DNA of 59,588 nucleotides, taken from the NCBI GenBank assembly GCA_028876065.1, contig JAGWTI010000009.1:1-59588 (forward strand), written 5' to 3'. The DNA comes from Nitrospirota bacterium (lineage in GTDB: Bacteria > Nitrospirota > Nitrospiria > Nitrospirales > Nitrospiraceae). The position numbers were made by a program, and so were the translations under genes. Shown piece after piece: positions 37,547 through 52,649 of the stretch. Below the pieces are notes generated by a model, which had not been told where the DNA came from, did no database searches, and saw only the letters and a program-made list of their open reading frames with translations. Numbering within the stretch: position 1 is the first letter of the stretch; every line of letters begins with the position of its first letter.

Positions 37547-40216
37547 CTAGGCCGAGACGAGCCGACTGGCCAAGGCTCGTTCGTCTTCGAGGGTGCGCAC
37601 CTCCCCGTTCAGCCTGGCGTCCAACAGCCGCCGGAGGATGGGCTTGTACCGAGGACCGGGCTTCAACCCCAAAGCCTTGAGATCGATGCCGGACAAGGCC
37701 GGCTTGATCCACCGGTCGGTGGCAAGGAACGCCACGACGAGCCGCTTCACCGACTCCGTCCTGGCTTTCGCGAGGAGGACCAACAGGGTTTCATCGGACA
37801 GGCCGACCAGCAGATGGTAGACCTGCGCCGGGGTCGGCGACGGCCGCGCGGCCAGCCGTCGGAGCAAGCCGTTGACGGAGACGCATCCCGCCCGCACCGC
37901 TTGCGCGACCTGCGCCGGCGCCGTGAGACGCGTGAGGGTATCCTCCACCGCCCGCTCGGGCAGCGGCTCCAGCAACGCCGTCAGGTAGACCATCCAGGGT
38001 GCCGCCCTGTGTCCCTGCGGCCAATCCAGCGCGGCAATGGCGTACCAATCCAGCGTATCCTCCACCGCGCGCACCAGCGCAGCCGTTCGGGCCGACCAGG
38101 CCAGGCGCGGATGGATGAAGCGGAGCAAATCCAATTCGGCGAGGCGTTGCAACGCTCCCCGCGGCTTCTCTTCGGACAGCAGGAGCCGCAGCTCGTCCAG
38201 CAACCGATGCCCCGACAGCCGATGGAACAGATCCATCTTGACGGCGCCCTTGATGAGGGCCAACGTCTCCTTGCCCAGACGGAATCCGAAGCGGTGTTCG
38301 AAGCGGATGGCCCGGAACACGCGGGTCGGATCCTCCACGAAGCTCAAACTGTGGAGGACGCGGATCGCCTTGTCGTGCAGATCCCGTTGCCCCCCGTAAA
38401 AGTCTTCCAGTTCTCCGAACGAGCGCTGGTTCAGCCGGATGGCCAGGGTATTGATCGTGAAGTCCCGCCGGTAGAGATCTTTTTTGATCGAGCTCTGCTC
38501 CACGGTCGGCAGCGCGGTCGGATATTCGTAATATTCCGTCCTGGCCGTGGCCACATCCACTTTCATGCCGTTCGGGAGCAGGACGAGCGCCGTGCCGAAG
38601 CGGTCGTGCGCCTTGATGCGCGCCTGCTCCTGCTTCGCCAGCGCGCGGGCAAAGGCGATCCCATCCCCTTCGATCACCACATCCAAGTCCAGGTTCTCGA
38701 TGCCCAGCAGGAGATCCCGGACGAACCCGCCCACGGCGAAGGCCGAGAGACCGAGCCGATCCGCCAGCAGCCCCGCCTCTTCCAACAGCCGGTAGACGTC
38801 GCCGGTCAGCCGTTCCTTCAGAATGGAGCGCACGTTCCGGCGTCGGGCAAAGGGGGACGGGCCTTGCCCCTCCTGCCCCTTGGCCATGGCACGAGCGGAC
38901 GCCAGCACGTCGTCGTGCAAGGCCCTGAGGAGGTCGGTCCTGGTGATCACGCCGACGACTTTGGGGGCGGCCGCCGGCCCGACCAGCACCGGCACGAACC
39001 GCTGGTTGCGCTCGATCATCTGCTGCTCGATCTCGCGAAAGGGCGTGGCCGGATCGGCCCGATACTGGTCCGTCTGGATGAATTCCCCGACCGGCCTCTT
39101 GGCGAATCCATGGAACAGGGCCTTCTGCACGATCTCTCTCGTGATCAGGCCGCGGAACCGTTCCCGCCCGTCCAGGACCGGCAGGACATTCACGCCGTAT
39201 TTGGTCATCAGGCCTTCGGTTTCGGACACCGTCGCCTCTTGGCCGGCGGCTTTCACCGGCTTCGTCATCACGTCCTGCGCCAACAACGTGGGGCGGAACC
39301 GTTCGGCCAGCAGCTGCGCCAGCCGCTCCCGTATCTCGACGAGCGTCCGGCCCTTGACGCTGGCGGCGGCCGCCACGGCATGGCCCCCGCCCCCGAAGTC
39401 TTGCAGGATGGCTCCCACGTCGATCTCGGGGCTCCGGCTCCGCCCGATGATCTCGACCTTGTCCTCCATCGCCACGGCCGCCAGCACCGCATCCAGCCCT
39501 TCCAGTTCGGCCAGCTTGTGCACCACCTCGTCCAGATCGCCTCGGTACCGGTCGAAGGTGCTCGTGGCCAGGAGCACTTTGCGTCCGTCCAGATAATGGG
39601 GTTCGCCGTGCTGGAGCAGATCGTTCAGGATCGCGATCTGGTCCGGATCGAGCGGATGCCGCAGGGTTCCCGAAACCAGGTTCAGGTCCGCGCCGGAACG
39701 GAGCAGCCAGGCGGCGGCGTCCAGGTCCCGGGGCGTCGTCGAGGCATACGCCAGCGAGCCGGTCTCCTCATAGACCCCCAGCGCCAGCACCGTGGCTTCA
39801 AACGGGCTGAGCGTCAGCTCTTTCTCCCTCAGACGTTCGATGAGCAAGGTCGTGGTCGCGCCGACCGATTCCACCACCTGCAGGTCGGCACGCCAGGGCG
39901 CCTGGTCGGGCGCCCGCCCGCCCCCCTGATGATGATCGTAGACGTGGATCGACAAGCCGGGCCTTCCACAGAGGGCCTGCAACGGGCCGAGGCGAGACGA
40001 CTCATGCGTATCCACCAGGACCAGCCTGGTGACGGCCTCTAGGTTCACCTCCTTCAGCCTGGTCAGCCCGAGGTCATGGACGGCCAGAAAGCTGCGGACC
40101 GCCTCCTGGGCTCCGGCCGGCAAGACCAGCATGGCTCCTGGATAGAGCTTCCGCGCCGCGACCATGGAAGCCAACCCGTCGAAATCCGCATTGAGATGGG
40201 TGGTGATAAGGTCCAC
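37547..40216 (-). CDS. DHH/CBS/tRNA nucleotidyltransferase fusion (CCA- or A-adding type)
   Basis: An 889-residue multidomain protein. A DHH phosphoesterase domain (1-~310) has THLNADFDGLAS, VDTHESS and YDHHQGGG; the usual DHH is altered to NADFD/YDHH, and DHHA1 has GGGGHAVAAAAS. Two CBS domains follow (about 315-440), then a class II nucleotidyltransferase head with GGFVRDLLLG and DLDVVIEGDG (about 495-520) and RRDFTINTLAI, then the tRNA-binding tail (DPTRVFRAIRFEHRFG). Proteins of this layout in deep-branching bacteria are A-adding enzymes for the tRNA 3' end. CBS domains suggest adenylate control. It is last in the long minus-strand run. Confidence 0.9.
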   Translation of the reverse strand: MDLITTHLNADFDGLASMVAARKLYPGAMLVLPAGAQEAVRSFLAVHDLGLTRLKEVNLEAVTRLVLVDTHESSRLGPLQALCGRPGLSIHVYDHHQGGGRAPDQAPWRADLQVVESVGATTTLLIERLREKELTLSPFEATVLALGVYEETGSLAYASTTPRDLDAAAWLLRSGADLNLVSGTLRHPLDPDQIAILNDLLQHGEPHYLDGRKVLLATSTFDRYRGDLDEVVHKLAELEGLDAVLAAVAMEDKVEIIGRSRSPEIDVGAILQDFGGGGHAVAAAASVKGRTLVEIRERLAQLLAERFRPTLLAQDVMTKPVKAAGQEATVSETEGLMTKYGVNVLPVLDGRERFRGLITREIVQKALFHGFAKRPVGEFIQTDQYRADPATPFREIEQQMIERNQRFVPVLVGPAAAPKVVGVITRTDLLRALHDDVLASARAMAKGQEGQGPSPFARRRNVRSILKERLTGDVYRLLEEAGLLADRLGLSAFAVGGFVRDLLLGIENLDLDVVIEGDGIAFARALAKQEQARIKAHDRFGTALVLLPNGMKVDVATARTEYYEYPTALPTVEQSSIKKDLYRRDFTINTLAIRLNQRSFGELEDFYGGQRDLHDKAIRVLHSLSFVEDPTRVFRAIRFEHRFGFRLGKETLALIKGAVKMDLFHRLSGHRLLDELRLLLSEEKPRGALQRLAELDLLRFIHPRLAWSARTAALVRAVEDTLDWYAIAALDWPQGHRAAPWMVYLTALLEPLPERAVEDTLTRLTAPAQVAQAVRAGCVSVNGLLRRLAARPSPTPAQVYHLLVGLSDETLLVLLAKARTESVKRLVVAFLATDRWIKPALSGIDLKALGLKPGPRYKPILRRLLDARLNGEVRTLEDERALASRLVSA

Positions 40217-40273: not shown

Positions 40274-41035
40274 TCAGCGGACGTCCTGAAAGAACGCGCG
40301 GGGCAGGATGGGCAGTCGGAATTGCACGTGCAGGATGATCAGGAGGACGCGGATAAAGGACCGCCAGACGCCCATCTGCACGAACTTGCGCGAGTCGGTG
40401 AGCACCGGCGGGTCGAGCAGGATCGGCCTCGTCACGCGAAGCAGCCTCTCGCCGAAGGCCACGTCTTCGAGGATCGGCCGATCGGGAAACCCGCCCAACC
40501 GCTCGAAGAGCGAGCGCCGCACGAACAGCGCTTGGTCCCCGTAGATGATGCGGGACCGGAGGCAGCGGACGTTATCCAGGCAGGAGATCAGCGCCAGGCG
40601 CCAGTCCGATCCGGAGAATCGGTGCCGGAACCCACCGGCCTGAACCAGCCCGTCCCGCTCCATCCCGTTGAGCCTGACGATCGCCCCCTCGGGCAAGAAG
40701 GTATCGGCATGGAGAAACAGCAGGATCTCCCCTGCCGCTTGCTTGGCGCCGGCGTTCATCTGAGATGCCCGCCCTTTGGGAGCGGACAGCAACACACGTG
40801 ACGCGCGAAGCGTATCCCGTGAAGCGTCCGGCGAGCGACGAGCGACGAGAGACGAACGACGCGACTCGGACTCGCCCGCGCCGAATCCGAAGGATTCGGC
40901 GATGCTGCGAGTCCGGTCGGTGCTGCCCCCGTCCACCACGATCACTTCATAGTCGCCCGGCTGCCGCACAAGCCGGCGCAACGTCTCCGGCAGGGCCTTC
41001 TCTTCGTTATAGGCGGGGATGATGACGGAGATCAT
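40274..41035 (-). CDS. TIGR04283-type family 2 glycosyltransferase
   Basis: A 253-residue GT2 enzyme. SVIIPAYNEEKALPETL opens the nucleotide-sugar fold, VIVVDGGSTDRT and FLHADTFLP supply the metal-binding acidic motifs, GDQALFVRR and ILEDVAFGERL complete the family pattern. TIGR04283 proteins are annotated for arsenosugar synthesis in some bacteria, but no ArsM or ArsS is seen here. An insert of about 30 residues (FGAGESESRRSSLVARR onward, ending before LLSAPKGRASQMNAG) sits between core strands and is encoded by ten in-phase heptads at 40797-40866. The start codon overlaps the ferritin-like gene stop (ATGA). Confidence 0.85.
   Translation of the reverse strand: MISVIIPAYNEEKALPETLRRLVRQPGDYEVIVVDGGSTDRTRSIAESFGFGAGESESRRSSLVARRSPDASRDTLRASRVLLSAPKGRASQMNAGAKQAAGEILLFLHADTFLPEGAIVRLNGMERDGLVQAGGFRHRFSGSDWRLALISCLDNVRCLRSRIIYGDQALFVRRSLFERLGGFPDRPILEDVAFGERLLRVTRPILLDPPVLTDSRKFVQMGVWRSFIRVLLIILHVQFRLPILPRAFFQDVR
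40797..40866. repeat. Ten in-phase heptads inside the glycosyltransferase gene
   Basis: The plus strand reads CGTGACG, CGCGAAG, CGTATCC, CGTGAAG, CGTCCGG, CGAGCGA, CGAGCGA, CGAGAGA, CGAACGA, CGCGACT. Each unit starts with CG. The frame stays open, adding an Arg/Ser-rich loop. CGTGAAG is the complement of the unit tandemly repeated at 13245-13335. Confidence 0.85.
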
Positions 41036-41694
41036 GGGGCGGCTCTCGGCAACCGGCGTTCGACTGCCAGCCACGCGGGCAGGTAGCGCTTGGCGTCGTC
41101 CGTCCAGGCGGTCGGCTCTTCCCCGATGGACTCGAATAGGTTCTGCAGCGTCGCCACCATGGCTTCGATCAGCGCCACATATTCCAGCGCGCGGGGGCGG
41201 AGCGCCTCCGGGTCCGTGTCCCCTCCTGCAATGGCCCGCTCCAAGGCGCGGCAGCCGAAGGCATAGTGAGCCTCTTCCTGATGGATGAGGATGCGGCGCA
41301 AGCGGCCGAATGGCGCGTCGCGCTTCGCCAGTCCTGCTTCGACCCGCTTGAGGATCGCCTCCCCCAGCCCTTCCAGGATGATCTGCTCCGCCAGCAACGT
41401 TTCCACCCAATCCCGTCTCGCCACCGCGGCCTCCAATCGCCGGCGGTAGGCTTCGAGTGCCGGCAGCAAGGGGCATGCGCCAAGATGTTTGGGAGACAGC
41501 CAGGCAATCGCGCCGTGAAACACGAGGGCATGGGTCGCTTCCTGCCGGGCCTGGCTCAACAGGAACCGCCTCGGACCCGGCTCCGGAGCCAACGTCGCCT
41601 GCCACTGCGCACAGTCCCGCGCGAGCAGTTCGCCGTGCGCCAGAAACTGCAGCAAGCGGGCGATCGGCACCCGTTCGTCAGGGCCCACCAGCAT
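41032..41694 (-). CDS. Ferritin-like di-iron protein
   Basis: A 220-residue helical protein with a four-helix-bundle metal pattern: SQARQEATHAL (ExxH) near residue 52, EQIILEGLGE near 103 and HQEEAHYAFG (ExxH) near 138. These are the spaced Glu/His ligands expected for a non-haem di-iron carboxylate site. It may be an oxygenase or peroxidase-like enzyme rather than a storage ferritin. No signal peptide. Translationally coupled to the glycosyltransferase and 63 bases after the DUF547 gene. Confidence 0.72.
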   Translation of the reverse strand: MLVGPDERVPIARLLQFLAHGELLARDCAQWQATLAPEPGPRRFLLSQARQEATHALVFHGAIAWLSPKHLGACPLLPALEAYRRRLEAAVARRDWVETLLAEQIILEGLGEAILKRVEAGLAKRDAPFGRLRRILIHQEEAHYAFGCRALERAIAGGDTDPEALRPRALEYVALIEAMVATLQNLFESIGEEPTAWTDDAKRYLPAWLAVERRLPRAAP

Positions 41695-41706
41695 GATTCC
41701 CCCTTA

Positions 41707-41774
41707 ACGATGAAGGGTGAATGCGGAATGATGCATGGAAGAATCCGTCACCCTGCATCATTCGGCACTGTGCA
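41707..41774. repeat. Heptad repeats forming a hairpin at the DUF547 gene 3' end
   Basis: ACGATGA, AGGGTGA, ATGCGGA, ATGATGC at 41707-41734, and TGCATCA, TTCGGCA, CTGTGCA at 41754-41774. AATGATGCA (41727-41735) and TGCATCATT (41754-41762) are perfectly complementary, giving a hairpin that contains the DUF547 stop codon. The repeat encodes that protein's last residues. Confidence 0.7.
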
Positions 41775-42561
41775 TTGTTTTCGGGGCCGGACCGTTCAAT
41801 CGCCAGTCGTATTCGAGGAATTCAATGGTATAGGGCGACGATTCCAGGTCGCGCGCGAGGCCCTGGTCCGTCACATACCGCGCCACATAGCCGAGCACCG
41901 AACCGCCCTGGGCGGCAAAGTCTTTCTCGAACCACTTGAAGATCATGGAGAGGGACGCGACCCTGTTCTCCCGGTCGAATCGGTTCCTGGCTGGATCGTT
42001 GATGAACACACGGGCGCTCTCGTCCAGCTGCGCATCCAGGCGGCTTGCGTGATAGGCCTCCGACCGGAGCTTGGGACAGGAGCGAGACGCGCAGACGATC
42101 GCAAAATGCATGCGCGGATCGCGGAAATCCGGGATCAAGAGGTTTCGCTCCAAATCGTAGAGCGTGATTTTCTCCCCGCCCACCAGATAATCCCTCCCGA
42201 GAAAATACTGGTACCGGCCCGCCAGGGTGCCCGGCGAATAGCCGTCCAGGATACCCTTGATGGCGAAGGCGTTGTAGGCATTGATCCAAAAAGCCAGGCG
42301 GGCCTCGCGGGTCGGCAAGCTGTTCGGATCAATCCGGTCCAATTCCCGCAGATAGGCCTCAAGCCGACTATCGGCCGCGATACCAGGATAATTGACTACC
42401 CCGTCCATCACCTGAGCTAGCAGCAGACCATCGAAAGTCTCCTGGGAAAATCCCTGAGGAGAGAGGGGCTCCATCGGATGAAACGAGCGTGGCACTGTGG
42501 AACAGCCGGCCAGCAGGATCAATAGAACAAGGCCCGCCCTCGGAACGATCCAGCGCATCAT
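41758..42561 (-). CDS. DUF547 lipoprotein
   Basis: A 267-residue lipoprotein (LLILLAGCST, Cys about 20). The DUF547 domain covers most of the mature chain: DGVVNYPGI, LAFWINAYNAFAIKGIL, FAIVCASRSCPKL and VYINDPARNRF-like features. The Cys-rich ASRSCP and His residues are conserved in the family, which has a papain-like fold with unproven activity. The start ATG overlaps the radical SAM stop by four bases, so they are coupled. The C-terminal residues PKTMHSAE are repeat-encoded. Confidence 0.85.
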   Translation of the reverse strand: MMRWIVPRAGLVLLILLAGCSTVPRSFHPMEPLSPQGFSQETFDGLLLAQVMDGVVNYPGIAADSRLEAYLRELDRIDPNSLPTREARLAFWINAYNAFAIKGILDGYSPGTLAGRYQYFLGRDYLVGGEKITLYDLERNLLIPDFRDPRMHFAIVCASRSCPKLRSEAYHASRLDAQLDESARVFINDPARNRFDRENRVASLSMIFKWFEKDFAAQGGSVLGYVARYVTDQGLARDLESSPYTIEFLEYDWRLNGPAPKTMHSAE

Positions 42562-43559
42562 GTCGTCACCTGTGCTTGCACCGATCTCGGCGTTAGCAAG
42601 GCCGAAAGTGGGTGACGGAGTACGGATCCCACCACGCGGCTACAGAGCATGTTGCAGGACGAGCGGTTTGAGCAATTGGTGATAGCCAGCCGATCGAAGC
42701 AGGCCAGGATATCATCCAGAGAGGACTGCAACAGATTGCCGGCATGGGCCAGGGCCAGACAGGGCGCCACGTTGCCGGAGGCGTCGATGGCGATGCTGTA
42801 CCGGCCCGCGTCACAGCGATCCAAGGCCCCGCCGCTCAACCAGCGGACATTGTCCCTCAGATAGTCCCGGAAATAGCCCCTCGGCACCAAGCCGGATTCC
42901 AGCACCCGCTCGAAAACACCCGCCAACATCCGGCGATCGTACTGCAATCCCGCCTCGGCCTTCCCATACCGCTCGATGCCCCAATGGTAGGCGCCGACCA
43001 CGGGCATGAATCCATGGGCCTTGGCGAACCGCACCATGGCCTCCACTTCGTCGCGATTGGCTTCGCTGGCGATGATCGTCAGGTACTTCGGATGGGGAAA
43101 GTCTTGCAGGAGGCCGATTCCCTCCACTACATCGACGAGTTGATCCGCCCCCCTGATCCACCGGTATCGCTCCCGGTCCAACGTGTCCAGACTGACCGAG
43201 AGGTTGAGCGGCAACGCAGCCAACCGCCGGATCAACGAGGGGGTCAAGCGCGTGCCGTTGGTAATCAACGTAAGACCGAAACCCAGTTCGTGCAAGTCCT
43301 CCAGAATCTCCGGCAGGTCCCGGCGCAGCAACGGCTCCCCGCCCTGCACGAACAGGAACCGCAAACCCTCCCGGTAGAGACCGGCGAACACCCGCCGGAT
43401 GTCTTCGCGGGTCAGTTCGTACCGGCCCCGGTTCAACGGCAGGTCGCAATAGCCGCAGGCGGAGTTGCACCGGAGCGTGACCTCGAAGACCGCCAGGATC
43501 GGCCGGCCCCGGATCACGTTCAGCACCGGACGGGCGAGCGAGGCGAATGCCGGGGCCAT
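42558..43559 (-). CDS. Radical SAM protein with C-terminal Cys cluster (SPASM-like)
   Basis: A 333-residue enzyme. CNSACGYC near residue 31 is the CxxxCxxC site for the SAM-binding [4Fe-4S] cluster, FVQGGEPLLR is the GGE motif and LSVSLDTLDRERY follows the usual fold. The C-terminal part has several Cys (RCDAGRYS, APCLAL, TNCSNRSSCNMLCS) that suit an auxiliary iron-sulfur cluster as in SPASM/twitch enzymes, which modify peptides or cofactors. The substrate is unknown. Four bases after the molybdoenzyme gene and overlapping DUF547, so part of one operon. Confidence 0.87.
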   Translation of the reverse strand: MAPAFASLARPVLNVIRGRPILAVFEVTLRCNSACGYCDLPLNRGRYELTREDIRRVFAGLYREGLRFLFVQGGEPLLRRDLPEILEDLHELGFGLTLITNGTRLTPSLIRRLAALPLNLSVSLDTLDRERYRWIRGADQLVDVVEGIGLLQDFPHPKYLTIIASEANRDEVEAMVRFAKAHGFMPVVGAYHWGIERYGKAEAGLQYDRRMLAGVFERVLESGLVPRGYFRDYLRDNVRWLSGGALDRCDAGRYSIAIDASGNVAPCLALAHAGNLLQSSLDDILACFDRLAITNCSNRSSCNMLCSRVVGSVLRHPLSALLTPRSVQAQVTT

Positions 43560-43563
43560 GGGA

Positions 43564-44608
43564 CTAGGCCGCCTCGGAGACGGTCACGGTGACCTCATGC
43601 CATCCCGCCGCTCCGTCGGGAAAGGGGGCCTGTTCCGTCGAGGCCTGAAGCTGGCCGGTTCCATCCGTCGCCCGCACCAAGAGGCTATACCGTCCCGGCT
43701 TGGCCGGCTGCCAACGATAGGCCCAGAAACGCCAGGCATAGGGCGAGAGTTCCGGCTCCAACTGCGTCGCCTGCCAGAGCCGGCCTCCGTCCGCGCTGAG
43801 TTCCACCGACTGGATGCCCCGGCTGCCGGCGAACGCCAGCCCTTTGACCGCATGCTCCCCGAACCGGAGCCTATCCCCGTGACCCGGCACGTCGATGCGG
43901 GACATGGTCTTGACCGTCGCCTCCTCGGACCAGCCTGTGCGCTGGTAATAGCCCTTGTAATCCTGCTCCACCACCTCGATCTCCGTCAGCCACTGGACCT
44001 GCTTCATGCCATACACACCCGGCACGATGATCCGCGCCGGAAAGCCATGGGCTTGCGGCAGTGCAACCCCGTTCATCTTCACGGCCAGCAAGACATCCCC
44101 GGCCATCGCCTGCTCCATCGGCAGACTGTCCGAATAGCCGTCCGCCGCCCGGAAGACGACATCCCTGGCCCGCGCCGACACCCCCCGCTTCCGCCAGCAG
44201 GGCTTTCAACGGCACCCCTTCCCACAAGGCCGTGCCGATGGCATCGCCCGCCACGCTGTTGCCCACACATTCCAGCGTCACGGTCTCCGAGACGAACGGG
44301 CGGGCGAGGAGTTCCGGATAACGGAGCGTGACCGGGTTGTTGACCAACCCCTTGATCGCCAGCTCCCACTCATTGAGCCTGATGGCCGGAGGGCTGCGGT
44401 AGGAGGTGACGTAAAACTCGTCGTTGGGCGTCATGGCCGGCGTCGCCCGAGCCGATCCGTGGAACAACTTGTCCAGCACCGTCGCTCCGGCCCTGGCCGG
44501 CCACACCGCCGCCAACGCGAGGCCTCCAGCCCAGCGGAGCCCCTGCCCCAGCGCCTGCCGGCGCGAGATCTTGCCCCTGCGCCCTGTTCGCCGTCCATCA
44601 CCGTTCAC
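43564..44608 (-). pseudogene. Sulfite-oxidase-family molybdoenzyme, frameshifted
   Basis: Two frames together give one Tat-exported molybdopterin oxidoreductase of about 345 residues. The first frame (GTG at 44608) has a twin-Arg leader SRRQALGQG, then VTLECVGNSVAG with the molybdenum Cys ligand and GTALWEGVPLKALLAEAG. The second frame continues as SARARDVVFRAADGYSDSLP, HGFPARIIVPGVYGMKQVQW and an Ig-like dimerisation domain to 43564. The break is a run of six C at 44181-44186 on the plus strand; five would restore the frame. It could be a sequencing error, phase variation or true decay. Lies between the thioredoxin-like and radical SAM genes. Confidence 0.82.
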
Positions 44609-44630
44609 GATTCACCCATCACGCATCACT
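44596..44630. repeat. Heptad repeat at the junction of two operon genes
   Basis: CATCACC, GTTCACG, ATTCACC, CATCACG, CATCACT in phase. The array contains the GTG start of the frameshifted molybdoenzyme and ends at the stop region of the thioredoxin-like gene, leaving the start codon of the former uncertain. Confidence 0.75.
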
Positions 44631-45156
44631 GGCCCGGTTCCGCCAGGAGGGTCTGTATCCACCGCTCCGTTTCCGAATAACCGCCCTCCCCGATCCGCAC
44701 CGTCCGGATGATGCCCTGCTTGTCGATCAGGTACAGGGCCGGCCAGTAGCGGTTGCCGTACCGGTTCCAGGTGGCAAAGTCGTTGTCGATCGGGACGAGA
44801 TACCGGATATCCTTCGCCCTGAGATAGGTCTTCACCTTCTCCACATCTTTTTCATAATTGAACTCCGGCGAATGGACGCCGATGACGACCAGCCCCTGGT
44901 CCGCGTACTTCTGATGCCACGCGCGGACATAGGGCTCCACGTTGCGGCAGTTGTAGCAGCCGAAGGTCCAGAACTCGACCATCACGACTTTGCCCTTGAG
45001 GTCGGCCAGTTTGGTCGGTGCCCCGTTGAGCCAGACCGAGTCGGCGATCTCCGGGGCCGGCATGCCGATGCGGGCATCGGCCGCGCCACCCGCCACGAGC
45101 ATGGCCAAGCCGCAGATCGCCCCCACGAGGGTTCGTGGCATTCCCTGTCGGTTCAT
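44626..45156 (-). CDS. Exported thioredoxin-like (TlpA/redoxin) protein
   Basis: A 176-residue protein with a signal peptide (GAICGLAMLVAGGAADA). The thioredoxin fold has the active site in FWTFGCYNCRNVEP, a CYNC pair near residue 68, and the cis-Pro in YWPALYLID. These proteins reduce or exchange disulfides in the periplasm, for example during cytochrome c or metallocentre assembly. The GCYNCR variant is typical of TlpA-like proteins with broader specificity. Sits between the DUF3047 gene (13 bases) and the frameshifted molybdoenzyme (17 bases). Confidence 0.85.
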   Translation of the reverse strand: MNRQGMPRTLVGAICGLAMLVAGGAADARIGMPAPEIADSVWLNGAPTKLADLKGKVVMVEFWTFGCYNCRNVEPYVRAWHQKYADQGLVVIGVHSPEFNYEKDVEKVKTYLRAKDIRYLVPIDNDFATWNRYGNRYWPALYLIDKQGIIRTVRIGEGGYSETERWIQTLLAEPGQ

Positions 45157-45169
45157 GCTCCACCTCCCT

Positions 45170-45934
45170 TCACTTGGCCTTCTTGAACAGGATATCGCCG
45201 TAGTAGGCGGTCGCCGTCTCGTTCGTATTGTCGGTGTCGGTCATGATGGCGACGCCGGAGATCGGAGACGGCTCTTCGCCGAAGGCCTTCTTGTAGTCCT
45301 CGTAGAGGTTCCGCTCTTCGGTGACCCAGGCGTTGAGTTTGTCCTTCCCGCTCTCCACGACGAACATGACCACCTGGTCCGTGTAGGTGTTGGGCCGCAT
45401 CGTGCCGATGGGCGCTTTGCTCTCCCAGATGTAGTTGATCGCCCCGAGCGGCGGATACCGGCCGTAGAGGAGCTTGACGCCCTCATACTTGGCCTTGTCG
45501 AAGAGGCTGACCCGGCTGGCGTCGTATGCAAAGGTGATATAGATCCGGGCCGGGTAGTCGTCCCCTTCCTTTTTGGACACATCGCCGTTCCTGTACACGT
45601 TCGCCACTTTCCAGCGCCATTGCACGATCGGATATTCCTTGGGATCGATCCTGATCTCCCGGGTCAGCCCCGAGGACGCCGCGTCGCTCACGGCTTTGAC
45701 CACGACCGATTCGCCGTCTTTCACCAGACTATAGCTGGTGTGCCGTGCGATCTTCTTGAAGGTCAGCGGCTCCCAGCCGGCCGGCGGACCGTTGCCTTCC
45801 GCCTCCGCCGAGAACCGTCCCACTTCGAGGACGGACGGTGATTGGGCCTGGAGAGACCCAGTGGCCGCCAGGGCCAGCATCACCCCACAGACAAGGATCA
45901 CCAACACGTCAGGCCTCAAATCCCCGCGTACCAT
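45170..45934 (-). CDS. DUF3047 exported protein
   Basis: A 254-residue secreted protein with an N-terminal hydrophobic leader (VLVILVCGVMLALAATG). The mature part is beta-rich and matches the DUF3047 layout (YPIVQWRWKVANVY, DDYPARIYITFAYD, NAWVTEERNLYEDYK), whose function is unknown; members are often periplasmic. ATG at 45934 is preferred over the TTG at 45955 because GGAGG lies upstream. It overlaps the MsrP-like gene by 19 bases. Confidence 0.8.
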   Translation of the reverse strand: MVRGDLRPDVLVILVCGVMLALAATGSLQAQSPSVLEVGRFSAEAEGNGPPAGWEPLTFKKIARHTSYSLVKDGESVVVKAVSDAASSGLTREIRIDPKEYPIVQWRWKVANVYRNGDVSKKEGDDYPARIYITFAYDASRVSLFDKAKYEGVKLLYGRYPPLGAINYIWESKAPIGTMRPNTYTDQVVMFVVESGKDKLNAWVTEERNLYEDYKKAFGEEPSPISGVAIMTDTDNTNETATAYYGDILFKKAK

Positions 45935-46698
45935 TCGTAGCCTCGATCCTCCCAATAGCCGCCTCTGCCGCCGGCGATGGACTCAACGCTCTCGACGAGC
46001 TCGATTTGCATCAAATACTTGGCCTGCTTGTAGCCAAGCTGTCGCTCGACCCGCAGCCGAATCGGCGCGCCGTGCTGGATGGGAAGAGCTGTATCGTTGA
46101 TCTCGTAGGCGAGAATGGTCTGAGGGTGGTGCGCATCCTCGAAGTCGATGCTCTCATAGTAGGGCTGCCCGTCCTCGTCCGGGTCCGCACAGTGGAACAC
46201 GACATAGCGGGCGGAAGGCAAGGGCCGGACCCGCTCCAGCAACGCGCTGAGCCTGGCCCCCTTCCATTTGGCAATCGCGCTCCAGCCTTCCACACAATCG
46301 TGGCGCGTGATCTGCGTGCGCGAGGGGAACGCGCGCAGCTCGTCCAGCGAAAAGCTGGCCGGGTCGTGAACCAGGCCGCCGATCTCCAGCTTCCAGTCGG
46401 CAAATCCGTTTTTGGCCAGGGCCTGATAGGCCTCGCTCTCCGGATTGCTCGTCCCGTTGGCCGGAAAGACCGGAGACAGGTCATCAGGGGTGAACTCCTT
46501 CGCCATCGCTTGCCTCGGCGACAGGAGGCGCTGGACTTTCTCGCTTGCGTTCTCGGTCTTGCCGAGCAGCTGCGGGAACCAGTCGCTCCGCGAGAGGCTA
46601 TCGCAACCAGCCAGGAGCAAGAAGCCGGTTGCCTGGAGAGCCCGGGTCAGGAACCGTCGCCGGTCAACCGTTGGGGTCTTGGAAAACCTGCGCGTCAT
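45916..46698 (-). CDS. MsrP/YedY-like molybdopterin oxidoreductase, Tat lipoprotein
   Basis: A 260-residue single-domain molybdoenzyme. The leader RRRFLTRALQ is a twin-Arg signal and LLLAGCDS looks like a lipobox, so the enzyme may be exported folded and lipid-anchored. The core has TRHDCVEGWSAIAKWKG, with the molybdenum-coordinating Cys near residue 143, and HGAPIRLRVERQLGYKQAK. It matches the MsrP branch, which reduces methionine sulfoxide with electrons from a haem membrane partner. Its gene overlaps the upstream cytochrome b gene by 35 bases, which supports such a pair. True substrate unproven. Confidence 0.85.
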   Translation of the reverse strand: MTRRFSKTPTVDRRRFLTRALQATGFLLLAGCDSLSRSDWFPQLLGKTENASEKVQRLLSPRQAMAKEFTPDDLSPVFPANGTSNPESEAYQALAKNGFADWKLEIGGLVHDPASFSLDELRAFPSRTQITRHDCVEGWSAIAKWKGARLSALLERVRPLPSARYVVFHCADPDEDGQPYYESIDFEDAHHPQTILAYEINDTALPIQHGAPIRLRVERQLGYKQAKYLMQIELVESVESIAGGRGGYWEDRGYEWYAGI

Positions 46699-47485
46699 CC
46701 GTGCCTCCGCCCTGCTCGATCACGAACCAGCCTGTCACCATGGATCGAAGGTTATTCACCAGACCTGTGGTGGCAACCATCACCAGATGGACGACCGCGA
46801 AGCCCACGAAGGCGAAGCAGGCGAGAAAATGGACGGTGCGGGCCGATTGCCTTCCGCCAAACAAGTCCGGCAGCCAGGGGAAAGCCGCGTCAAACGCCGG
46901 CGACATGGACAGCCCGGTCAAGACGATCAGAGGGCCTATCCCAAAGACAATCCCCGTGTAGGCCATCTTCTGCATCACGTTGTAGTGCCTGGCCTCTTCG
47001 CCCGTCGGATGGTGGAAAGTGAGATGGCGCCACAGATCGCGGCCGATGTGGCGCAGATCGTTCCACTTCGGAACCAGGTCCTTCCAGAAATGGCGGCTGA
47101 AGAGCGCATAGAGCCAGAAGAGCAGGCCATTGACGACGAAGATCCAGGCGAAGAACAGGTGCCAACGACGCCCCATGGCGAGCCATTGCGGACCGGGAAG
47201 CGTGGCCCAGGAAGGGAAGCCTCGCCGCATGCCCGAGGAGTAGCCAAGCACCCCGGTGGTGTCGAAGGGATGCCCCCATACCGTCGTGATTCCTCTCCGC
47301 TCGCCGCTCTCCGTGATCACCGCCCGCATCGACAGGAACGGGCGATCACGATCGGAGCGGTCCCCCCAGTACAGGGCGGGATGAGCGTTGAAAATCTGCA
47401 GCCCGCTCATGATGAGAACGAACAGGCAGAGCAGGTTGAGCCAGTGTCCCAGGCGAACCGGCCAGGTATGGCGGTAGACATGCAT
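46664..47485 (-). CDS. Cytochrome b561-type membrane subunit
   Basis: A 273-residue protein with four to five membrane helices. His residues at helix positions (RLGHWLNLLCLFVL, WHLFFAWIFVVNG, TVHFLACFAFVGFAVVHL) suit two b haems as in formate-dehydrogenase/thiosulfate-reductase cytochrome b subunits. It lies directly upstream of, and overlaps, the MsrP-like gene, so it probably passes quinol electrons to or from that enzyme. This differs from the MsrQ partner of classic systems, which is a shorter flavocytochrome relative. First of the main redox operon. Confidence 0.82.
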   Translation of the reverse strand: MHVYRHTWPVRLGHWLNLLCLFVLIMSGLQIFNAHPALYWGDRSDRDRPFLSMRAVITESGERRGITTVWGHPFDTTGVLGYSSGMRRGFPSWATLPGPQWLAMGRRWHLFFAWIFVVNGLLFWLYALFSRHFWKDLVPKWNDLRHIGRDLWRHLTFHHPTGEEARHYNVMQKMAYTGIVFGIGPLIVLTGLSMSPAFDAAFPWLPDLFGGRQSARTVHFLACFAFVGFAVVHLVMVATTGLVNNLRSMVTGWFVIEQGGGTDDAQVFQDPNG

Positions 47486-47570: not shown

Positions 47571-47831
47571 TTACTTCCCCATCTCGCCCATCTTCCCCTT
47601 CATCTCGCCCTGCTGGCTCTTCATCCCATCGCCCATGTGGCCTTTCATCTTATCCTTCTCGGCGGCCATCTTCTCTTTCTTGCTCTCCATGTTGCCGCCC
47701 ATCTTCTCCTTCATCTCGCCCATATCGCTCTTCATCTCGCCCTTCATCTTGCCCATCTCATCGGCAAAGACCATCGAGTTGAACCCGATCAGAGCCATCA
47801 TTGCCGCAGCCGCCACCATCATCTTTGTCAT
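47571..47831 (-). CDS. Small secreted Met/Lys-rich protein
   Basis: An 86-residue protein. The signal peptide (KMMVAAAAMMALIGFNSMVFA) is followed by a low-complexity mature part of Met, Lys, Glu, Gly and Asp in short repeats such as GKMKGEMKSDMGEMKEKM. No Cys or His. Regular Met spacing could bind Cu(I) or act as an oxidisable Met reservoir, the latter fitting the adjacent MsrP-like system, but this is conjecture. ATG at 47831 is chosen because the export signal starts there; AGGA is upstream. It is 85 bases before the cytochrome b gene on the same strand. Confidence 0.65.
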   Translation of the reverse strand: MTKMMVAAAAMMALIGFNSMVFADEMGKMKGEMKSDMGEMKEKMGGNMESKKEKMAAEKDKMKGHMGDGMKSQQGEMKGKMGEMGK

Positions 47832-48032
47832 CGCGTTCCTCCCAGGTGAGAAGTTTGAAGAGCCGCTACCGATTGCACGTAGCCTATGTCTCTCGTCGCA
47901 TCCGAACGTTACAGAATTTTTCGGCTCGTTCCAGGCAACGGCCGGACGCAACGGCCTGGTTCAGAAAACGATGGCGACAGAAAGGTGACGGAACGGGGCC
48001 TGCTTCGCGCAGAGCCGGTTGAACGGGCTGAC

Positions 48033-48314
48033 TTACCGGGACTTCCAGGTCCGAAATCGCCGGAGCAGTTCGTCGCGGACGGCCGGCGGAACCGGCTCTT
48101 CCGGCAACCGGCCCAGGGTGTAGATCGTCTGTCTCATCTGGCGGAGGTAGGTCCGGCAGCCCAGGCAGAGCCCCAGATGCATCTGAAACCGCAGCCAGAG
48201 CAGGAAGCTCTGGCGCCCTTCGAGGTAGTCGGTGACGGCTTCGGTGAATCCTTTGCAGGTCACCTTGCCGGCCAGGTAGTCGATCGCCTGGTTCTTCAGA
48301 TCTTCTCGGGTCAT
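48033..48314 (-). CDS. Zinc-finger anti-sigma factor (short, cytosolic)
   Basis: A 93-residue protein with the His-x3-Cys-x2-Cys motif (HLGLCLGCRTYL) of zf-HC2 anti-sigma domains, and an upstream Cys in VTCKGF. No membrane helix follows, so it is a soluble zinc-binding anti-sigma factor like RsrA/ChrR types, often redox-sensitive. Start overlaps the sigma-factor stop by four bases (ATGA), the usual arrangement for a sigma/anti-sigma pair. Confidence 0.82.
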   Translation of the reverse strand: MTREDLKNQAIDYLAGKVTCKGFTEAVTDYLEGRQSFLLWLRFQMHLGLCLGCRTYLRQMRQTIYTLGRLPEEPVPPAVRDELLRRFRTWKSR

Positions 48315-49012
48315 GGCTGCGGAATCTCTCCGTTCACGTATCGTTCAAGGGCCTGCCGAACCTTGGCGCGGGCTCGGTGCAGCAGGACCCGTTGATTGGC
48401 CTCGCTGATCTCCAGGAAGCCACAGACCTCCTTGGAGCCCAGCCCTTCTACGTCCCGCATGACCAGCACCTGCCGCAGGTGCGGCGGGAGCGCCTGGATG
48501 GCCTTCTCCAAATAGATGCCGCCTTCCTTGGTCAGGAACCGTTTCTCCGGCGTCTCTTCATCCCAGGGGTGCGGCGGCGAGGCCCAGTGATCGACCCAGA
48601 AGCCCGATGCGACGAACCGAGAGGGGTCCACGGCCGGCTCATTGGAATCGTCACCCGGATCGCCGATGGCGGAAAACGACACGTGACGGCTTTCTCGTAC
48701 CCCTCGCGACTTGGCCTTGTTGGTCAGGATGCTGAATATCCAGGTTTTGAGCGAGGACCGACCTTCGAACCGATCCAGGCCCTCCAGGACTCCGATCCAG
48801 GTTTCCTGAACGACCTCCTCGGCCACCGACCGATCGGAGACATAGGCCAGGGCCACCCGGATGAGCGACCCATGATACCGCTCAACCAGCGAGGCAAAGG
48901 CCGCCTCCTCCCCACCCCGAAGCGCCACGAGGAGCCCCTGCTCGTCCCGGGTCGTGCCGGACGAACGGGGCGTGGCTTGGGGCAGAACAGCCCTCTTCCC
49001 TCGTCCAAGCAT
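48311..49012 (-). CDS. ECF-type RNA polymerase sigma factor
   Basis: A 233-residue sigma-70 family protein. Region 2 has FASLVERYHGSLIRVAL, the core-binding AEEVVQETWIGVLEGL and the DNA-melting stretch SLKTWIFSILTNKAKS; region 4 has LPPHLRQVLVMRDVEGL followed by the helix-turn-helix KEVCGFLEISEANQRVLL. The spacer between regions 2 and 4 is longer than usual (about 70 residues). It should drive genes responding to an envelope or redox signal, with the zinc-finger protein as its inhibitor. ATG at 49012 gives a normal N-terminus. Confidence 0.9.
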   Translation of the reverse strand: MLGRGKRAVLPQATPRSSGTTRDEQGLLVALRGGEEAAFASLVERYHGSLIRVALAYVSDRSVAEEVVQETWIGVLEGLDRFEGRSSLKTWIFSILTNKAKSRGVRESRHVSFSAIGDPGDDSNEPAVDPSRFVASGFWVDHWASPPHPWDEETPEKRFLTKEGGIYLEKAIQALPPHLRQVLVMRDVEGLGSKEVCGFLEISEANQRVLLHRARAKVRQALERYVNGEIPQP

Positions 49013-49271
49013 TGTCCAACGATCCGGGCCAAGGCCCCATGAAAGGTGTGATGCGGGAAGCGCGTGAGCGGCGTTATTGTAGGGCAAGCTCATCCATCAA
49101 ATCCATGCTATCGTGCGTCGCTGCCGCAAAACAGACCGGAAGACAGACCCCCTGCTATCGTCACGGTCACCGCGCGATCGTTACATCGGTCCGAAGGGTG
49201 CGGCACGATAGGATGCCGGGCGGGATGATCGACTTTTCCCTGTCTCGGACGGACCGGATGTTGCCCAACCT

Positions 49272-50825
49272 TTACCTTCGCAGCCAGGCAAAGAGCTTCC
49301 TCAACGCCTCCTTCTTGGCTTGGGTGAGAGTAGTCTTGCGCCAGGCATTGGCCGCTCGTTTGACCACTTCTCCCTGCGTGGGATAGGGATGGATCGTGCC
49401 GCAGATCGTGTTCAAACCCGTGCCGGATTGCATCACGACCGAAAACTCGTTGATCAGATCGCCCGCATGGGCAGCCACGATCGTGGCGCCGAGAATCTTG
49501 TCGGTTCCCTTCCGGACGTGGACCCGCGCGAACCCTTCCTCCGCTCCGTCCAGAATGGCCCGATCCACCTCGTCCAACCTGAACGTGAACGTCTCCACTT
49601 CCAGTCCCTTGGCCTGGGCGTCCTTTTCATACAGACCCACGTGGGCGACTTCCGGCTCCGTAAACGTGCACCAGGGCATGATCAGCCGACCGGCACCGGC
49701 ATAGCCCAACCCGAACGGGTGGGGAAAGAGCGCGTTCTGGATCACGACCTGCGCCATCGCATCGGCCGCATGAGTGAACTTGTAGCGCGAACAGACGTCG
49801 CCGGCGGCGAAGATCCGCCGGTTCGTCGTTTGCAAGCGATCGTTGACCGTCACGCCGGCCTTGTCGTAGTCCACGCCGACGGTGTCGAGGCCGAGCCCTT
49901 CCACGTTCGGCTGCCGCCCGACGCCGACCAGAATTTCATCCACCGTCACGTCATACCGGCGGCCGTGGGAATCCACCGTCAACCGTTTGCCGCCCTCCGT
50001 CTTTCCGGCTTGCACGTCTTTCCCGCAACAGAGGAGCGTGACGCCGTCGCGCGCCAGGGCCGCCTGCACGATCTCCGCCGCATCGCGATCTTCGTTGGGC
50101 AGAATGCCGTGCAGGGCTTCGACGAGATAGACCTGGCTGCCGAACCGGGCGAAGGCCTGCGCCAGCTCGCAGCCGATCGGCCCGGCCCCGATGACGGCCA
50201 GCCGCGGCGGCAATTCGGTGAGGGAAAAGACCGTCTCGTTGGTCAGGTAGCCGGCCTCCGCCAGGCCGGGGATCGGCGGGGTGGCCGCGCGGGCGCCGGT
50301 GCAGATCGCCGCCTTGACGAAACGCAGGGTCCGGTCGCCGGCCGGCCCCTCCACCTCAACGGTTTCCGCGCCGGCAAACCGGGCCGCCCCGACGTAGACA
50401 TCCACGCCCAGCTGCTTGTAGCGGTGCGCCGAATCGTTGTGGCTGATGCGGGCCCTGAGTCTTCGCATCCTGGCCATGGCCGCGGCAAAGTCGTACTTCA
50501 CGCCGGGAGGCACGTGGACGCCGAATTCATCCGCGCGCCGCACGTCGGCCCAGGCCCGCGCCGCGCGAAGGAGGCCTTTGGAAGGGACGCAGCCGACGTT
50601 GAGACAGTCGCCGCCCATCAAGTGCTTCTCGATCAAGGCCACCTTGGCCCCCACCGCCGCCGCCACCACCGCCGTGATCAAGCCGGCGGTTCCGGCGCCG
50701 ATGACCACGATGTTGTACCGGCCCTCCGGTTCGGGGTTGACCCAGGCAGGCGGGTGCACGTTCTTGACCAATGTCCGGTTGTACTCGTCGTCCGGCAGGA
50801 CGACGACCGGATTCTGCTCGCTCAT
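49272..50825 (-). CDS. Pyridine nucleotide-disulfide oxidoreductase (mercuric-reductase-like)
   Basis: A 517-residue flavoprotein. FAD-binding IVVIGAGTAGLITAVVAAA near residue 40, the redox disulfide GGDCLNVGCVPSKGLLRA near 75, NAD-binding VIGAGPIGCELAQAFARFG near 210, FAD Asp in FAAGDVCSRY and the C-terminal His-Glu dimer pair TIHPYPTQGE. It lacks the N-terminal heavy-metal domain and the C-terminal Cys pair of MerA, so mercury is unlikely to be the substrate. The 40-residue N-terminal extension is distinctive. Located 37 bases after the TVP38 gene; these two are often neighbours or fused. Confidence 0.9.
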   Translation of the reverse strand: MSEQNPVVVLPDDEYNRTLVKNVHPPAWVNPEPEGRYNIVVIGAGTAGLITAVVAAAVGAKVALIEKHLMGGDCLNVGCVPSKGLLRAARAWADVRRADEFGVHVPPGVKYDFAAAMARMRRLRARISHNDSAHRYKQLGVDVYVGAARFAGAETVEVEGPAGDRTLRFVKAAICTGARAATPPIPGLAEAGYLTNETVFSLTELPPRLAVIGAGPIGCELAQAFARFGSQVYLVEALHGILPNEDRDAAEIVQAALARDGVTLLCCGKDVQAGKTEGGKRLTVDSHGRRYDVTVDEILVGVGRQPNVEGLGLDTVGVDYDKAGVTVNDRLQTTNRRIFAAGDVCSRYKFTHAADAMAQVVIQNALFPHPFGLGYAGAGRLIMPWCTFTEPEVAHVGLYEKDAQAKGLEVETFTFRLDEVDRAILDGAEEGFARVHVRKGTDKILGATIVAAHAGDLINEFSVVMQSGTGLNTICGTIHPYPTQGEVVKRAANAWRKTTLTQAKKEALRKLFAWLRR

Positions 50826-50862: not shown

Positions 50863-51645
50863 TCATGCGCCGCCCTTGGCCGAGACGTCCCGCGCAGCGG
50901 CCATTCGCTGCCTGGCGGCGAACTTTTGATAGAGCGTCGGCACCAAGGCCAGCACACCCAGCAGGGTAAAGGCCAGCAACACGTTGGGCGAGGCGATCTC
51001 CTTCAGCGAATTGATCGTGCCCAGCTGCCGCCCCGCGTAGGCATAGACGAAGCTGCCGGGGATGATCCCGATGGCCGTCGCCGTCACGTACGTCCTGAGG
51101 CTGACTTTGGTCAGGCCGAACAGGGCATTCACGATGAAAAACGGCGCGACCGGAATGAGCCGGATGGTCATCAAATAACTGAACCCGTTCTTGGCGAACC
51201 CTTCCTGGAACGGGCCGAGCCACCGGCCGAATTTGGCCTCGACCCAATCCCGCAGCAGATAGCGGGACGCCAAAAAGGCCAGGGTCGCGCCGCTGGTGGC
51301 GCCGAGGTTCACGTACAAGGTGCCCCACAGACTGCCGAAGAGCAGCCCCCCGGCCAAGGTGAAAAACACGGCGCCGGGCAACGAGGCCGAGACCAGCAGA
51401 CAATAGGACAGGATGAAGATCGCCACCGAAGCCCCATAGTGTTGATCGGTGAAAACCAGGAGACCGTCGCGGTTGGCTTTGAGCGACTCCAGCGAAAGAT
51501 ACCGGCCCAGATCGAAATAGAAGAACCCGCCGATGGTCGCCGCAAACAGCAGGGCGATGATCAGCTTCCCCTTGTTGAACGAGCCGGCCGCTGGAATCGT
51601 CTCGACGGATGGCTGCATCAGGACATCTCCCTCGATCCGTATCAT
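50863..51645 (-). CDS. TVP38/TMEM64 (DedA-like) membrane protein
   Basis: A 260-residue protein with about six membrane helices. The family core is SASLPGAVFFTLAGGLLFG, ATSGATLAFLASRYLLRDWV with the conserved Gly/Arg turn, and RLIPVAPFFIVNALFGLTKV with IPGSFVYAYAG. Proteins of this VTT superfamily act as lipid scramblases or transporters. ATG at 51645 follows GGGAGG at ideal spacing. Likely co-transcribed with the flavoprotein gene that follows. Confidence 0.88.
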   Translation of the reverse strand: MIRIEGDVLMQPSVETIPAAGSFNKGKLIIALLFAATIGGFFYFDLGRYLSLESLKANRDGLLVFTDQHYGASVAIFILSYCLLVSASLPGAVFFTLAGGLLFGSLWGTLYVNLGATSGATLAFLASRYLLRDWVEAKFGRWLGPFQEGFAKNGFSYLMTIRLIPVAPFFIVNALFGLTKVSLRTYVTATAIGIIPGSFVYAYAGRQLGTINSLKEIASPNVLLAFTLLGVLALVPTLYQKFAARQRMAAARDVSAKGGA

Positions 51646-51745
51646 GGCGACCTCCCTCACCCCTGTCAATGTATGGGTCGCGGGAAGGACGGAATCCTTA
51701 CGGTCACGAAAAAACGAGTCTCGCCTTCGGAGGAGGGCTACGGCG

Positions 51746-52057
51746 CTAGTGCGCCCGCTCTCTCATGACGCGCGCAATCCGCTCACGGGCGTCCGGAGAA
51801 AGGCCGGCGGCGGTCGGACCCTCCGGCTCGTCGGCCAGCCGGTCCGGCCGAGTCCGCACGGCCTGACGTAGAAAGGCAATCTGCCGGAGATATCGCCGGC
51901 ACCAGGTGCAGATCAGGAGATGAAACCGGAGCCCGATCCGGCGGACCATCGGCAGGGGCCGATCCAGCGAGTCGGACCCCCACCTGGTCACGTCCCGGCA
52001 GGATGGCAGGCGAGCCGCCAGATATCGCGCGAAGGTATGGGGCAACAGCGGCATCAT
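51746..52057 (-). CDS. Putative zinc-finger anti-sigma factor
   Basis: A 103-residue protein with His-x3-Cys-x2-Cys (HLLICTWCRRYL) and an earlier Cys (RLPSCRDVTRW), as in zf-HC2 anti-sigma factors. The C-terminal half is charged and probably disordered, with no membrane helix. Its start is fused to the stop of the sigma gene (TGATG-type overlap at 52057). By position and motif it should inhibit that sigma factor. Confidence 0.78.
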   Translation of the reverse strand: MMPLLPHTFARYLAARLPSCRDVTRWGSDSLDRPLPMVRRIGLRFHLLICTWCRRYLRQIAFLRQAVRTRPDRLADEPEGPTAAGLSPDARERIARVMRERAH

Positions 52058-52647
52058 CAGGCCGGCGCGTCGGTGAAATGCTTGGTTTCAAGACAGCGGC
52101 GCAAATGTTTGCGCGCCCGATGCAACAACACCCAGAGGTTGGCCTGGCTGATCTTGAGCGCCGCACAGACCTCGTCCGCGCTCAACTCGTCCACCTCGCG
52201 CAGCGAGAAGACTTGGGCCATCTTCGGGGGCAATTCGCCGAGACATCGCGCGAGCACCTCCCAGAATTGCTTCTGCTCCAGCTCCCGGCTGGGATCGGCC
52301 GGCCAATCCTTGGGTGCCTGCCGGTCCACCCGCCAATGTCCGTCTCGATCGAAAACCGCCTCGTCGGGAAGGTCGTCCGCCATCTGCTCCACGTCCTCGG
52401 TCGGGGTTTCGCGACGACTCTTCCGGAACTGGTCCACCAGCTTATGCTTCAGAATCCCCACGAGCCAGCTCCGTTCGGAGGACCGGCCTGCAAACCGAGC
52501 CTTGGCCTGGAGCGCGGCCACAAACGTCTCCTGCACCAGCTCCTCGGCCAGCCGTTCGTCTCGGACTCTGGCGAGCGCAAACCGGAACAGACAATCCCCA
52601 TGCTGGTCCACCCAGGTTGCGGGATCGGAAAGGGATCGGGCCTGCAT
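52057..52647 (-). CDS. ECF-type RNA polymerase sigma factor
   Basis: A 196-residue sigma factor. Region 2: LFRFALARVRDERLAEELVQ, then ETFVAALQAKARF and RSWLVGILKHKLVDQFR. Region 4: LPPKMAQVFSLREVDELSA followed by VCAALKISQANLWVLLHRAR. The linker contains an acidic stretch and a WPADPSRELEQKQFW segment seen in other sigma factors of this size. The start at 52647 leaves two bases after the debranching-enzyme gene; 52707 would overlap it. It is distinct in sequence from the sigma factor at 48311-49012. Confidence 0.88.
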   Translation of the reverse strand: MQARSLSDPATWVDQHGDCLFRFALARVRDERLAEELVQETFVAALQAKARFAGRSSERSWLVGILKHKLVDQFRKSRRETPTEDVEQMADDLPDEAVFDRDGHWRVDRQAPKDWPADPSRELEQKQFWEVLARCLGELPPKMAQVFSLREVDELSADEVCAALKISQANLWVLLHRARKHLRRCLETKHFTDAPA

Positions 52648-52649
52648 CG

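Follow-up and report, generated by a model that had tools for sequence, protein, structure and literature searches.

A conserved gene cassette of Nitrospirales with a new predicted diiron protein and a possible relation to arsenosugar gene sets

Analysis of a 59,588-nucleotide stretch from a Nitrospirota bacterium (assembly GCA_028876065.1, contig JAGWTI010000009.1, positions 1 to 59,588; hereafter the window) reveals a minus-strand gene cassette that is real, conserved and apparently undescribed. Its core is composed of genes for a VTT membrane protein, a FAD oxidoreductase, a DUF3047 protein, a radical SAM protein, a DUF547 lipoprotein, a diiron (ferritin-like) protein and a glycosyltransferase (GT) of the TIGR04283 family. 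Homologs of the VTT, FAD, radical SAM, DUF547 and GT proteins of the window sit elsewhere with arsS, and sometimes with arsM, and we give an even chance to the reading of the region as an offshoot, specific to Nitrospirales, of the genes that accompany arsenosugar biosynthesis in other bacteria. Members of the genus Nitrospira, complete ammonia oxidizers included, are the dominant nitrite oxidizers in soils, water and treatment plants. The core genes are placed in the window as follows.

50863..51669 (approximate), minus strand: VTT (TVP38/TMEM64/DedA-type) membrane protein, cassette member; PF09335 with 100 bits, in the same place in most Nitrospira loci.
49272..50825, minus strand: FAD/NAD(P) disulfide oxidoreductase of the PRK06370 subfamily ("mercuric reductase"-like), conserved; NF004991 with 784 bits (cut-off 620).
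45170..45955, minus strand: DUF3047 secreted protein, frequent cassette member; PF11249, 1e-80.
42558..43559, minus strand: radical SAM/SPASM protein; PF04055 and PF13186.
41758..42561, minus strand: DUF547 lipoprotein, core; PF04784, lipobox LAGC.
41032..41694, minus strand: new predicted diiron (ferritin-like) protein (FERR), core, Nitrospirales-specific; invariant ligands and a predicted fold like that of aldehyde-deformylating oxygenase (ADO) or R2-like ligand-binding oxidase (R2lox).
40274..41035, minus strand: GT2-family glycosyltransferase, a TIGR04283 paralog, core; TIGR04283 with 211 bits (cut-off 182).

Scanning one genome per species with the diiron protein yielded 71 loci, nearly all of them from Nitrospirota and including N. 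moscoviensis (L072), where most of the cassette is present; matches recorded under Verrucomicrobiota and Nitrosospira probably reflect mis-binned contigs or bin labels. The genes usually follow one another as VTT, FAD oxidoreductase, DUF3047, a small antisense gene, radical SAM, DUF547, diiron protein and GT. The diiron gene is immediately followed by the GT gene in 65 of the 68 testable loci and immediately preceded by the DUF547 gene in 56 of 67, an adjacency that is near-invariant down to about 46% protein identity; the linkage of these three genes is beyond chance. Upstream content was counted on the strand of the diiron gene in the 50 loci with enough upstream sequence, and comprises the radical SAM gene in 42, DUF3047 in 30, the FAD enzyme in 27 and an MNIO gene in 6. 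The invariant genes are DUF547, the diiron protein and the GT, to which the radical SAM, FAD oxidoreductase and VTT genes are usually added. Full-length orthologs of the radical SAM protein (59–84% identity) were found in 7 of 60 relatives, the CxxxCxxC motif and the cysteines of the SPASM region being invariant in 8 orthologs, and the presence of the gene changes 8–10 times on the tree of the diiron protein, some absences corresponding to contig ends. A first-pass annotation of this DNA, made from the sequence alone, had proposed an undescribed operon and named gene order across Nitrospirota as a property to be checked; the order is indeed kept across the 71 loci, essentially all of them from Nitrospirota, and what has to be revised is the composition of the core, which differs from the genes that had been stressed. 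Between DUF3047 and radical SAM, most Nitrospira carry the small antisense gene (F3; L072:8605-9006 and 46 loci), which codes for a secreted protein and has no Pfam match.

The diiron protein of the window has no Pfam match, and its relatives give weak matches to several diiron families, the best being the ribonucleotide reductase (RNR) small chain. All 58 sequences of the protein share the residues E22, E52xxH55, E103, E108 and E140xxH143. Its AlphaFold2 model (predicted local distance difference test, pLDDT, 83.9; predicted TM-score, pTM, 0.81) resembles cyanobacterial ADOs (TM up to 0.71–0.77 over about 210 residues, 16–21% identity), followed by RNR R2 and R2lox, with Foldseek E-values of about 2e-3 at best. 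The predicted fold is a helical bundle with the E, ExxH, E, ExxH ligands of ferritin-like diiron oxygenases of the ADO/R2lox type, so that fold and ligands are shared with both, whereas the low sequence identity and the lack of an acyl-ACP reductase partner in the cassette separate the protein from ADO; the ADO family PF11266 does not match the window protein and matches one of the 58 members weakly (E 0.0027). The ferritin-like assignment of the first-pass annotation is backed by the invariant ExxH motifs and by the predicted fold, though not by a Pfam match. Of 296 Nitrospirota genomes sampled, 53 encode the protein, and all of these belong to two families of Nitrospirales; an additional match with E 7e-5, covering 68 residues, looks like chance. 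No match was obtained on plasmids. This predicted diiron protein is a new family restricted to the order Nitrospirales.

Contexts outside Nitrospirota were obtained by searching annotated plasmids with the DUF547 protein, the FAD enzyme and the GT. In Acinetobacter portensis (L175), arsS is followed by a VTT/FAD fusion, DUF547, TIGR04283 and TIGR04282; in Cupriavidus KK10 (L184), where product names come from homology and sequence inspection, it is followed by FAD, VTT, TIGR04283, a methylthioadenosine-phosphorylase-like gene, radical SAM and DUF547, and then by arsenate-reductase-like genes. A Burkholderia glumae plasmid (L181) has a DUF547-radical SAM pair near arsS, thioredoxin-CcdA, an extracytoplasmic function (ECF) sigma/zf-HC2 pair, TIGR04283/TIGR04282, VTT/FAD and a bufferin operon, Pseudanabaena (L182) shows the order VTT, FAD, arsM, VTT, arsS with a FAD enzyme 55% identical to that of the window, and a Hymenobacter island contains arsS, TIGR04283 and DUF547. 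Pairwise identities between window and island proteins are 39–55% for the FAD enzyme, 33–37% for DUF547 and 33–38% for the GT. ArsS is reported to adenosylate arsenic in oxo-arsenosugar biosynthesis (PMC12159101).

The cassette and these ArsS/ArsM islands have in common the VTT gene, the PRK06370-type FAD oxidoreductase, the TIGR04283-family GT, which in the window scores above the family cut-off, and the DUF547 lipoprotein; the islands of Cupriavidus and Burkholderia also share the radical SAM gene next to DUF547. On the other hand, the cassette lacks arsS, arsM and the TIGR04282 GT, adds DUF3047 and the Nitrospirales-only diiron protein, and has a distantly related radical SAM protein, which belongs to a family different from that of ArsS (TIGR04167). 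In the genome of the window, arsS with an adjacent ArsM-like gene is located elsewhere (C148), and so is the canonical TIGR04283 GT (C153), to which the GT of the cassette is a paralog with 41% identity. Because arsS, the defining gene, is absent from it, the cassette is classified as a variant related to the arsenosugar clusters and not as a member of them; we prefer to see in it a relocated version of the shared gene set, arsM-arsS and the canonical GT being found at other sites of the genome. The canonical arsenosugar loci of Nitrospira were considered as carriers of paralogs of the cassette genes and rejected, the GT being the sole gene in common.

Like MerA, the FAD enzyme of the window is a FAD/pyridine nucleotide disulfide oxidoreductase with a redox-active CLNVGC pair, but it has neither the N-terminal heavy-metal domain nor the C-terminal Cys-Cys and reaches 384 bits with TIGR02053, below the cut-off of 454. 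The DUF547 protein gives a confident predicted model (pLDDT 88.7) for which no fold match was found in the PDB, and a sequence search of the PDB returned no homolog of either DUF547 or DUF3047; the literature on DUF547, DUF3047 or TIGR04283 in an operon context provided nothing useful.

Several observations weigh against an arsenosugar-related origin and function. Neither arsM nor arsS lies within the cassette, and since arsS is present in 49 of 61 relatives anyway, the presence of the cassette cannot be tied to it. The radical SAM protein of Nitrospirales is not ArsS and resembles those of Cupriavidus and Burkholderia weakly (28–30% over about 170 residues). Since the canonical arsenosugar GT is encoded separately, the paralog in the cassette may use another substrate, and the TIGR04283 arsenosugar label is for this paralog an annotation only. 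The external contexts are known from plasmid records only, and the Legionella and Variovorax matches have other neighbors and no arsS. Finally, the radical SAM gene has been gained or lost repeatedly, so one fixed pathway is not required.

The most explicit form of the arsenic-related reading is that Nitrospirales perform an undescribed organoarsenical (or metalloid) tailoring, in which the SPASM radical SAM protein and the new ADO-fold diiron oxygenase would modify an arsenosugar-like precursor made by ArsM and ArsS, encoded elsewhere in the genome, and the glycosylated or lipid-linked product would be exported by the VTT protein; at this level of detail we regard the proposal as tentative and rather improbable. 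In the broader reading as an offshoot of the arsenosugar-associated gene set, to which the even chance applies, the cytoplasmic radical SAM protein, diiron oxygenase and GT would tailor a small, probably organoarsenic or otherwise metalloid- or metal-related metabolite, the FAD enzyme might supply or reset the thiol/metalloid redox state, the VTT protein could translocate this metabolite in a glycosylated or lipid-linked form, and the DUF547 lipoprotein and the DUF3047 protein may handle the transported product in the periplasm. Redox modules found in some genomes would be optional periplasmic add-ons (TlpA/SUOX and cytochrome b/MsrP-like), and an ECF sigma/anti-sigma pair probably activates expression when the envelope or metals cause stress. 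If so, a clade-specific cassette based on the gene set of arsenosugar islands, with a new diiron family, and with a copper-peptide module in some genomes, would indicate metal or arsenic chemistry so far unrecognized in Nitrospira and provide a functional lead for DUF547 and for the VTT/FAD pair; the production of organoarsenicals by nitrifiers would be directly testable in cultured N. moscoviensis.

The first-pass annotation had described nine minus-strand genes starting at a cytochrome b gene, in which two molybdoenzymes and a disulfide protein would repair or modify oxidized periplasmic material. All nine genes were recovered within 40274-47485, followed by the tRNA nucleotidyltransferase gene, and their family assignments were correct (PF01292, PF00174 twice, PF11249, AhpC-TSA/redoxin, radical SAM with SPASM, PF04784, GT2). 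Their spacing is as tight as had been noted: cytochrome b and MsrP-like genes overlap by 35, radical SAM and DUF547 by 4, and the diiron and GT genes by 4, and the gaps are 13 (DUF3047-TlpA), 17 (TlpA-SUOX), 4 (SUOX-radical SAM), 63 (DUF547-diiron protein) and 57 bases (GT-tRNA nucleotidyltransferase). The start of the unit has to be moved, the conserved FAD oxidoreductase and VTT genes being located further upstream than cytochrome b, from which an ECF sigma/anti-sigma pair and a gene for a small secreted protein separate them. The accessory and adjoining genes are the following.

47571..47840, minus strand: small Met/Lys-rich secreted protein; signal peptide-like start, also directly upstream of the cytochrome b-MsrP pair in G025.
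46664..47485, minus strand: cytochrome b (CYTB; b561/Ni-hydrogenase type), accessory; PF01292, 3e-21, same pair order in G025.
45916..46698, minus strand: twin-arginine translocation (Tat) lipoprotein of the sulfite-oxidase superfamily, MsrP-like, accessory; PF00174, 3e-37, RRRF and LLAGC motifs.
44626..45156, minus strand: TlpA/ResA-like thioredoxin-fold protein (CxxC), accessory; PF00578, with SUOX in G001, G005, G023 and G025.
43564..44608, minus strand: sulfite-oxidase-family Tat protein (SUOX), frame split; PF00174 in two pieces and PF03404.
37547..40216, minus strand: DHH/CBS/tRNA nucleotidyltransferase fusion, a flanking housekeeping gene outside the cassette; identified by Pfam domains, adjoining only some loci.

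Upstream of the diiron gene and on its strand, SUOX was found in 4, TlpA in 3 and MsrP or cytochrome b in none of the 50 loci; additional genomes carry SUOX, alone or together with TlpA, some of them lacking the radical SAM gene, and the CYTB-MsrP pair was met, with unchanged order, in a single other genome (G025). TlpA with SUOX and cytochrome b with the MsrP-like protein are accessory modules of a minority of genomes, and given a stable core with variable module content, the redox genes stressed earlier are exchangeable modules. Nevertheless, in about 20 loci the opposite strand carries a gene for a different molybdopterin oxidoreductase upstream of VTT, so molybdoenzymes are recurrent neighbors all the same. 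An operon in which the cytochrome b/MsrP-like, TlpA-like and SUOX-type proteins repair or modify oxidized periplasmic proteins with the support of the other genes would be consistent with these neighbors, with the Tat-lipoprotein, Tat signals, CxxC protein and b-type cytochrome, and with the order CYTB-MsrP-(...)-TlpA-SUOX-DUF547-FERR-GT that recurs in G025, but we consider it unlikely: most loci bearing the core lack the redox modules, and the enzymes of the core either are cytoplasmic or belong to the type found in arsS islands. The comparison with MsrPQ also argues against it, since the enzyme of the window, although a Tat molybdoenzyme of the same superfamily paired with a b-type cytochrome, is a lipoprotein far below the MsrP equivalog cut-off (105 versus 207 bits), and its partner is a PF01292 cytochrome and not of the MsrQ type. 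The SUOX gene, moreover, taken for a single gene in the first-pass annotation, is not one open frame in this record. Alignment with two intact orthologs (G001, G005) places one extra G in the G6 run at 44181-44186, and after a +1 shift the pieces are 44608-44180 and 44181-43564; the frameshift may be a sequencing error or a real mutation that makes a pseudogene. A repair function carried by two molybdoenzymes and a disulfide protein is unsupported by the counts in the 50 loci, while the hint of a small molecule or peptide as product, given in the same annotation, gains support: a function related to small molecules or metalloids is more probable than a repair operon, and the genes are more likely to yield a small glycosylated and possibly organoarsenic compound than to repair periplasmic proteins. 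A 408-residue unclassified lipoprotein (GCLSPIAMHRAV...) recurs beside TlpA/SUOX in the cassette (L039:10822-12048, L157, L161).

A link to copper appears in a second branch of Nitrospirales, where a BufA2-type precursor and an MNIO maturase, both above their NCBIfam cut-offs, and a BufC-like protein are encoded inside the cassette (L101:3646-5802, also L097-L099, L103, L111 and L166). Bufferins chelate excess copper (PMC12452194), and the bufferin genes of the cassette and of the Burkholderia island support a metal-stress setting. They also suggest that the radical SAM and diiron enzymes could act on a peptide in the way that MNIO enzymes act on bufferins, the cassette then making a ribosomally synthesized and post-translationally modified peptide (RiPP) or serving copper homeostasis. 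We judge this improbable, as the window has no MNIO, BufC or precursor gene, most Nitrospira loci, like the window, are devoid of a precursor-like peptide gene, RiPP recognition element (RRE) or MNIO, and the small gene F3 lies antisense and codes for a secreted product.

It is doubtful, too, that metal, arsenic and redox genes merely stand side by side under joint regulation, with no common pathway. The varying module content and the inconstant radical SAM gene would fit such a stress-gene neighborhood, and so would the two ECF sigma/anti-sigma pairs that flank the VTT-FAD genes; against it stand the tight overlaps and the conserved DUF547-FERR-GT adjacency described above. The pair downstream of the FAD gene consists of the following genes.

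48311..49093, minus strand: ECF sigma factor, probable regulator; Sigma70_r2/r4_2, a 69% identical ortholog adjoins the cassette in G016.
48033..48314, minus strand: putative anti-sigma factor; 4-base overlap with the sigma gene, a 73% identical ortholog is paired with sigma in G016, no Pfam match.

A promoter and terminator scan of the region remained at chance level. Within the GT gene, a low-complexity stretch of about 30 residues (window 40785-40885) separates conserved blocks; it was rejected as a dispersed repeat, the genome holding just two weak partial matches elsewhere. The second ECF sigma/putative anti-sigma pair is located upstream of the VTT gene (window 51746-52707) and is adjoined by a gene for a glycogen-debranching enzyme (52650-54707); in Pseudanabaena (L182), arsS too has a glycogen-debranching gene as a neighbor.

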